From positions 1 to 32,850 of the IMG/VR virus record IMGVR_UViG_3300034980_000210: a DNA stretch of 32,850 nt; one strand, written 5' to 3'. Every line of letters begins with the position of its first letter. Position 1 is the stretch's first letter. The DNA comes from a virus. The notes below the pieces were generated by a model, which searched no databases, was not told the origin of the DNA, and saw only the letters and a list, made by a program, of their open reading frames with translations. The translations under genes and the position numbers were made by a program. Positions 31,054 through 31,103 of this stretch are shown here, piece by piece.

Positions 31054-31103
31054 CCCCGCCCTACATGTCCAAAAACCAGGTATTTAGGACATATAAGGCG
31101 GGG
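31054..31103 (-). other. 50-bp inverted repeat upstream of the replication operon
   Basis: Arms 31054-31070 and 31087-31103 match at 15 of 17 positions, with a 16-base loop that is itself partly dyadic. Read as minus-strand RNA both mismatches become U-G pairs, giving a continuous 17-bp stem; in plus-strand RNA they would be C-A. It lies about 180 bases upstream of the initiator gene in leader-like DNA. Operator, antiterminator or origin hairpin are the main options. Confidence 0.8.

Follow-up and report, generated by a model that had tools for sequence, protein, structure and literature searches.

The 50-bp dyad at positions 31054-31103 of this uncultured tailed phage is most likely a structured leader RNA of the replication operon, a reading that we hold with middling confidence. 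The analysed window is the whole IMG/VR virus record IMGVR_UViG_3300034980_000210 (32,850 bp), which carries terminase, portal, HK97-type capsid and tail genes on its minus strand. At the right end of the record a leftward replication cluster and a rightward operon of small accessory genes diverge, and the dyad sits between these two transcription units, where the earlier note had located it, 180 bp upstream of the leftward initiator gene. The genes and gene features on which the argument draws are the following.

29141-29497, minus strand: RusA gene of the replication operon
29503-30054, minus strand: gene of the same operon for an unknown 183-aa protein
30071-30874, minus strand: gene of the same operon for a replication initiator / replisome organizer of 267 aa with an N-terminal winged-helix domain (phrog_1408, AF2 and Foldseek)
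30387-30478, no strand assigned: iteron-like tandem repeats in the initiator gene, three 12-bp units at 30393-30428 and three 10-bp units at 30450-30478
30881-30886, minus strand: putative initiator ribosome-binding site AAGGGA (sequence; start codon at 30872-30874)
31356 onwards, plus strand: accessory operon

The initiator matches phrog_1408 (replication initiation; E 1.7e-11). Its AlphaFold (AF2) model is modest, with a mean pLDDT of 55 and about 80 in the N-terminal domain, and in this model the domain follows the order helix-strand-helix-helix-strand-strand of a winged-helix fold; the best structural matches in a Foldseek viral search include replisome organizers. The most stable 100-nt minus-strand stretch by z (-5.3) is found elsewhere in the operon, at 29301-29400 within the RusA coding region.

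Three nested or neighbouring structures were identified upstream of the initiator gene.

31054-31103, minus strand: core dyad with 17-bp arms (31054-31070, CCCCGCCCTACATGTCC; 31087-31103, GGACATATAAGGCGGGG) and a 16-nt spacer, an uninterrupted stem as minus RNA
31037-31122, minus strand: extended stem of 19 core pairs (31052-31070/31087-31105), 8 additional pairs (31043-31050/31109-31116) and 3 more (31039-31041/31120-31122)
30895-30973, minus strand: second hairpin of the putative leader, with 20/21 arm pairs as minus RNA (3 of them G-U) and -50.9 kcal/mol

The dyad exists as first described, with both arms in the places originally given. These differ at 2 of 17 positions, both differences being transitions that become G-U pairs in minus-strand RNA only, and the minus fold holds 17 unbroken pairs, which bears out the description as perfect in that strand. 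The further partial dyad reported for the loop is present as well, and turns out to be trivial, comprising ACCAGGT (31075-31081) plus AAA/TTT alone; three A-U pairs carry the stem on into the loop. As minus RNA the dyad reaches -32.8 kcal/mol (z about -7.6; equalled by none of 200 shuffles) versus -23.7 kcal/mol (z about -5.3) as plus RNA, and the extended stem reaches -47.7 kcal/mol on the minus strand versus -26.9 on the plus strand, on which it does not form. This large advantage of minus over plus RNA in stability, for the dyad and its extension alike, supports the leader-RNA reading. Counted by Watson-Crick pairs, the dyad is the sole inverted repeat in the window to reach the threshold, and it is the top G-U-aware hairpin of the minus strand. 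Since 2 of 120 whole-window dinucleotide shuffles hold a hairpin as strong, it is unusual and not astronomically so; its strength is much rarer when counted for one given 0.5-kb intergenic region. Open reading frames across the dyad or the second hairpin have no family match.

The second hairpin stops about 8 nt short of the initiator ribosome-binding site and is strong on the minus strand only (z -4.6 to -5.0, versus -2.1 on the plus strand). By itself it is not very significant window-wide, because a hairpin scoring 45 or more turned up in 8 of 120 shuffled windows; that a second minus-only hairpin adjoins the initiator ribosome site is still a further point for a leader RNA. Its three wobble pairs all form on the minus strand, so that in the folds of the two hairpins together all five transition-type arm differences are G-U on the minus strand and none on the plus strand, for which the chance is 1 in 32 if transitions are random; this, too, supports the leader-RNA reading. 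The original argument, which went from the asymmetry of the dyad's two wobbles to an RNA leader, was weak by itself because two transitions favour the same strand half the time, and it becomes firmer once the second minus-only hairpin and the minus-only flanking pairs are taken into account.

The promoters predicted around the dyad are listed below, with ranks for sigma-70-like sites on both strands.

31171-31200, plus strand: promoter of the accessory operon, CTTACA-18-TATAAT with extended -10 (TGG), top score
31131-31158, minus strand: best but weak candidate upstream of the dyad, TTTTCA-16-TAAAAA, rank 215
31016-31045, minus strand: candidate downstream of the dyad, TGGGCA-18-TATAGT, rank 65 (chance level)
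30979-31008, minus strand: candidate downstream of the dyad, TGGATA-18-CATAAT, rank 45 (chance level)

The rightward promoter ranks first among all sigma-70-like sites of the record, and its position places the dyad upstream of and outside the rightward transcript. Between the two lies an AT-rich minimum (GC 0.39; 31120-31199) in which the base skew flips sign, a natural place for divergent promoters; minimum and skew change likewise support the leader-RNA reading. Flanking pairs, second hairpin, AT content and skew are, indirectly, consistent with a minus transcript begun to the right of the dyad, these features having been picked in part after the fold was seen. The reading is weakened in that no good sigma-70-like minus promoter was found between the dyad and 31200, the better minus matches lying downstream at chance level (ranks taken over 65.7 kb of strand, for a sigma-70 pattern that may not be used by the host). 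If the promoter at 31016-31045 is used, the dyad stays untranscribed, and starts downstream of the dyad, the refuting case of the earlier note, are possible.

The structures, their strand bias and their position are observed, and we infer minus-strand transcription through the dyad and a regulatory role for it. The leftward replication-operon transcript would start in the AT-rich gap at 31120-31200, next to the rightward promoter and pointing away from it, and the dyad would form the first of two strong hairpins in its untranslated 5' leader, folding co-transcriptionally into a stem of about 19-27 pairs. The hairpin may then act in cis on the RNA, most likely on elongation through, or on processing or stability of, the initiator mRNA, in a mode resembling either antitermination or a double-strand-ribonuclease site; the initiator start codon would not be covered by the dyad hairpin.

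Several known categories were considered and set aside. The minus stem is followed by GCAUCUACUGGG with no U-run, and the T10 tract of the plus strand begins 22 nt past the stem; hence the dyad is not a terminator, which also supports the leader-RNA reading. Rfam yielded no match at gathering score, nor at E up to 1 in the local region. Attenuation by an early hairpin at 31097-31114 that excludes the dyad was rejected: this hairpin forms in growing-chain folds, but terminator-like sites of this kind are no commoner than in shuffles. Antisense action of the c4/CI type, or occlusion of the start, was likewise rejected, as the pairing with the initiator ribosome site and start is equalled by 29 of 500 shuffled leaders; the start is no less accessible than with shuffled leaders. 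Start occlusion by RNA is therefore unsupported. The initiator autoregulation envisaged in the earlier note may run through DNA, given the winged-helix domain.

That route is the main rival explanation, and a possible one: the inverted 17-bp sites would constitute a DNA operator bound by a repressor or by the winged-helix initiator, with autoregulation as in plasmid Rep operators, in which inverted half-sites lie upstream of rep (e.g., F RepE). The initiator promoter (31045-31016 or 31008-30979) would then lie a short way downstream of the dyad. An operator would show the same arms, which weakens the leader-RNA reading, and several observations fit an operator: (i) the arm centres are 33 bp apart, about three helical turns, (ii) the dyad is the strongest Watson-Crick inverted repeat of the window and lies upstream of the gene for an initiator with a DNA-binding domain, as in the plasmids, (iii) the best minus-promoter matches are directly downstream, and (iv) there is a lone half-site in the initiator gene.

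30838-30854, plus strand: partial copy (14/17) of a dyad arm, in codons of a conserved motif

This half-site is possibly a coincidence, given the conserved codons in which it falls. Moreover, an operator predicts neither the minus-only second hairpin nor the minus-only flanking pairs, and further half-sites near the plus promoter were not found. In contrast to plasmid Rep operators, the dyad arms do not repeat the iteron-like motifs of the gene, both families of which (30387-30478) are unrelated to them in sequence; a Rep-autoregulated operator built from origin-iteron half-sites was rejected on this ground, the origin role of the repeats being itself presumptive.

It is improbable that the dyad is a passenger, that is, a captured palindromic repeat of the REP or small-transposon type or a functionless chance structure. 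The two shuffled windows with an equally strong hairpin are in keeping with the latter, and the former finds an echo in one of two genome matches to a loose dyad pattern. One match is a terminator-like hairpin in Fictibacillus; the other is a dispersed palindrome of a Calditrichia genome (L024:4370-4409, CCCCCCTATATGTCCCC and its complement), which belongs to a family of tens of copies with a core similar to the dyad arm. The Calditrichia palindromes have another outer arm and loop, however, so that the resemblance is probably convergent. Furthermore, the dyad is single-copy in this phage, the partial match at 30838 aside, and its place is precisely where the two units diverge, with another hairpin further along the putative leader.

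Least probable of all is an origin hairpin, extruded or bound in replication initiation. The dyad does adjoin an AT-rich stretch that includes the T10 tract, and the initiator gene is close by, but no iterons surround it. Tandem repeats of iteron type sit instead inside the initiator gene, the usual place of lambda-O-like origins, and for this reason the dyad is probably not the origin. As judged from sequence, these repeats, the first family of which (30393-30428) codes for an Asp-Ser repeat, are probably the likelier candidate for the replication origin.

Searches of viral and genome collections by initiator, terminase, accessory protein and dyad pattern found no other copy of the dyad and hence no relative in which covariation of the arms might speak for the leader-RNA reading; this weakens that reading. 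One relative of the initiator protein, at 50%, is encoded inside an operon without this leader (L002), and three remote initiator relatives have no strong hairpin upstream. The nearest phage (L003; terminase search) has 99.7% DNA identity and covers positions 7712-21037 only, where its contig ends. A mosaic relative, L020, carries an integrase and structural genes that otherwise differ, yet shares patches of 91-98% DNA identity with window positions 1-104, 26449-26988 and 27008-27724, which points to recent mosaic exchange. It has a different dyad of its own (L020:12243-12317; 75 nt, about -55 kcal/mol, no strand bias). A perfect GTGTGACCCATGGGTCACAC palindrome with a T-run follows at L020:12419-12442, and both structures sit between a consensus-like promoter and the L020 accessory operon.

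In the accessory operon of the record, a 60-80 bp cassette recurs ahead of every gene but the first, consisting of the short hairpin GCGCC.GTCC-TAAC-GGAC.GGCGC and the ribosome site CTTCAACCGAACTAAGGAGAA. The cassette also occurs in the otherwise different phage L020, which comes from the metagenome that also gave L003.

31556-31617, 32225-32286 and 32668-32727: cassette copies of the record
L020:6693-6757, 6986-7049 and 8507-8568, minus strand: cassette copies of L020

One stem pair of this hairpin varies on both sides (U-A/C-G/U-G), the six copies being too few for significance. The 198-aa accessory gene contains an exact 30-bp direct repeat (31731-31760 and 31791-31820, 60 bp apart) that duplicates HEGWRLEAL.

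A leader RNA of the replication operon may be compared with several phage systems. The put RNA of HK022 is a protein-free antitermination leader of about 70 nt with two adjacent stem-loops, and its putL and putR share sequence (PMC9378689). The present stem-loops would likewise belong to an early operon's leader, near the presumed promoter, and would need no dedicated protein. In contrast to put, about 63 nt separate them, and the minus leader resembles the divergent plus leader in nothing beyond 7-nt chance matches; a put-type RNA was rejected on these grounds. In the lambda N-leader and the T7 early RNase III sites, an early phage leader holds a stem that is long and almost perfectly paired, and the dyad stem is similarly upstream of the first gene's ribosome site; unlike in the lambda N-leader, boxA/boxB were not seen by eye. 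P4 CI RNA and P1/P7 c4 are structured leader RNAs of phage replication or antirepressor operons. The RNA predicted here would likewise be structured and reside in a replication-operon leader, which, unlike theirs, has no significant complementarity to the initiator start. It is very improbable that in this uncultured phage lineage the two minus hairpins constitute a novel leader RNA which, free of protein and analogous to put or P4 CI RNA though unrelated in sequence, would let RNA polymerase read through the replication operon or set its copy number.

For now the dyad counts as a well-formed candidate for a regulatory element, ordinary in type, and nothing marks it as a novel class of system. 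A functional leader RNA would give this uncultured tailed phage a compact RNA switch acting on replication initiation, and would be a candidate for comparison with put, nut or CI-type leaders.
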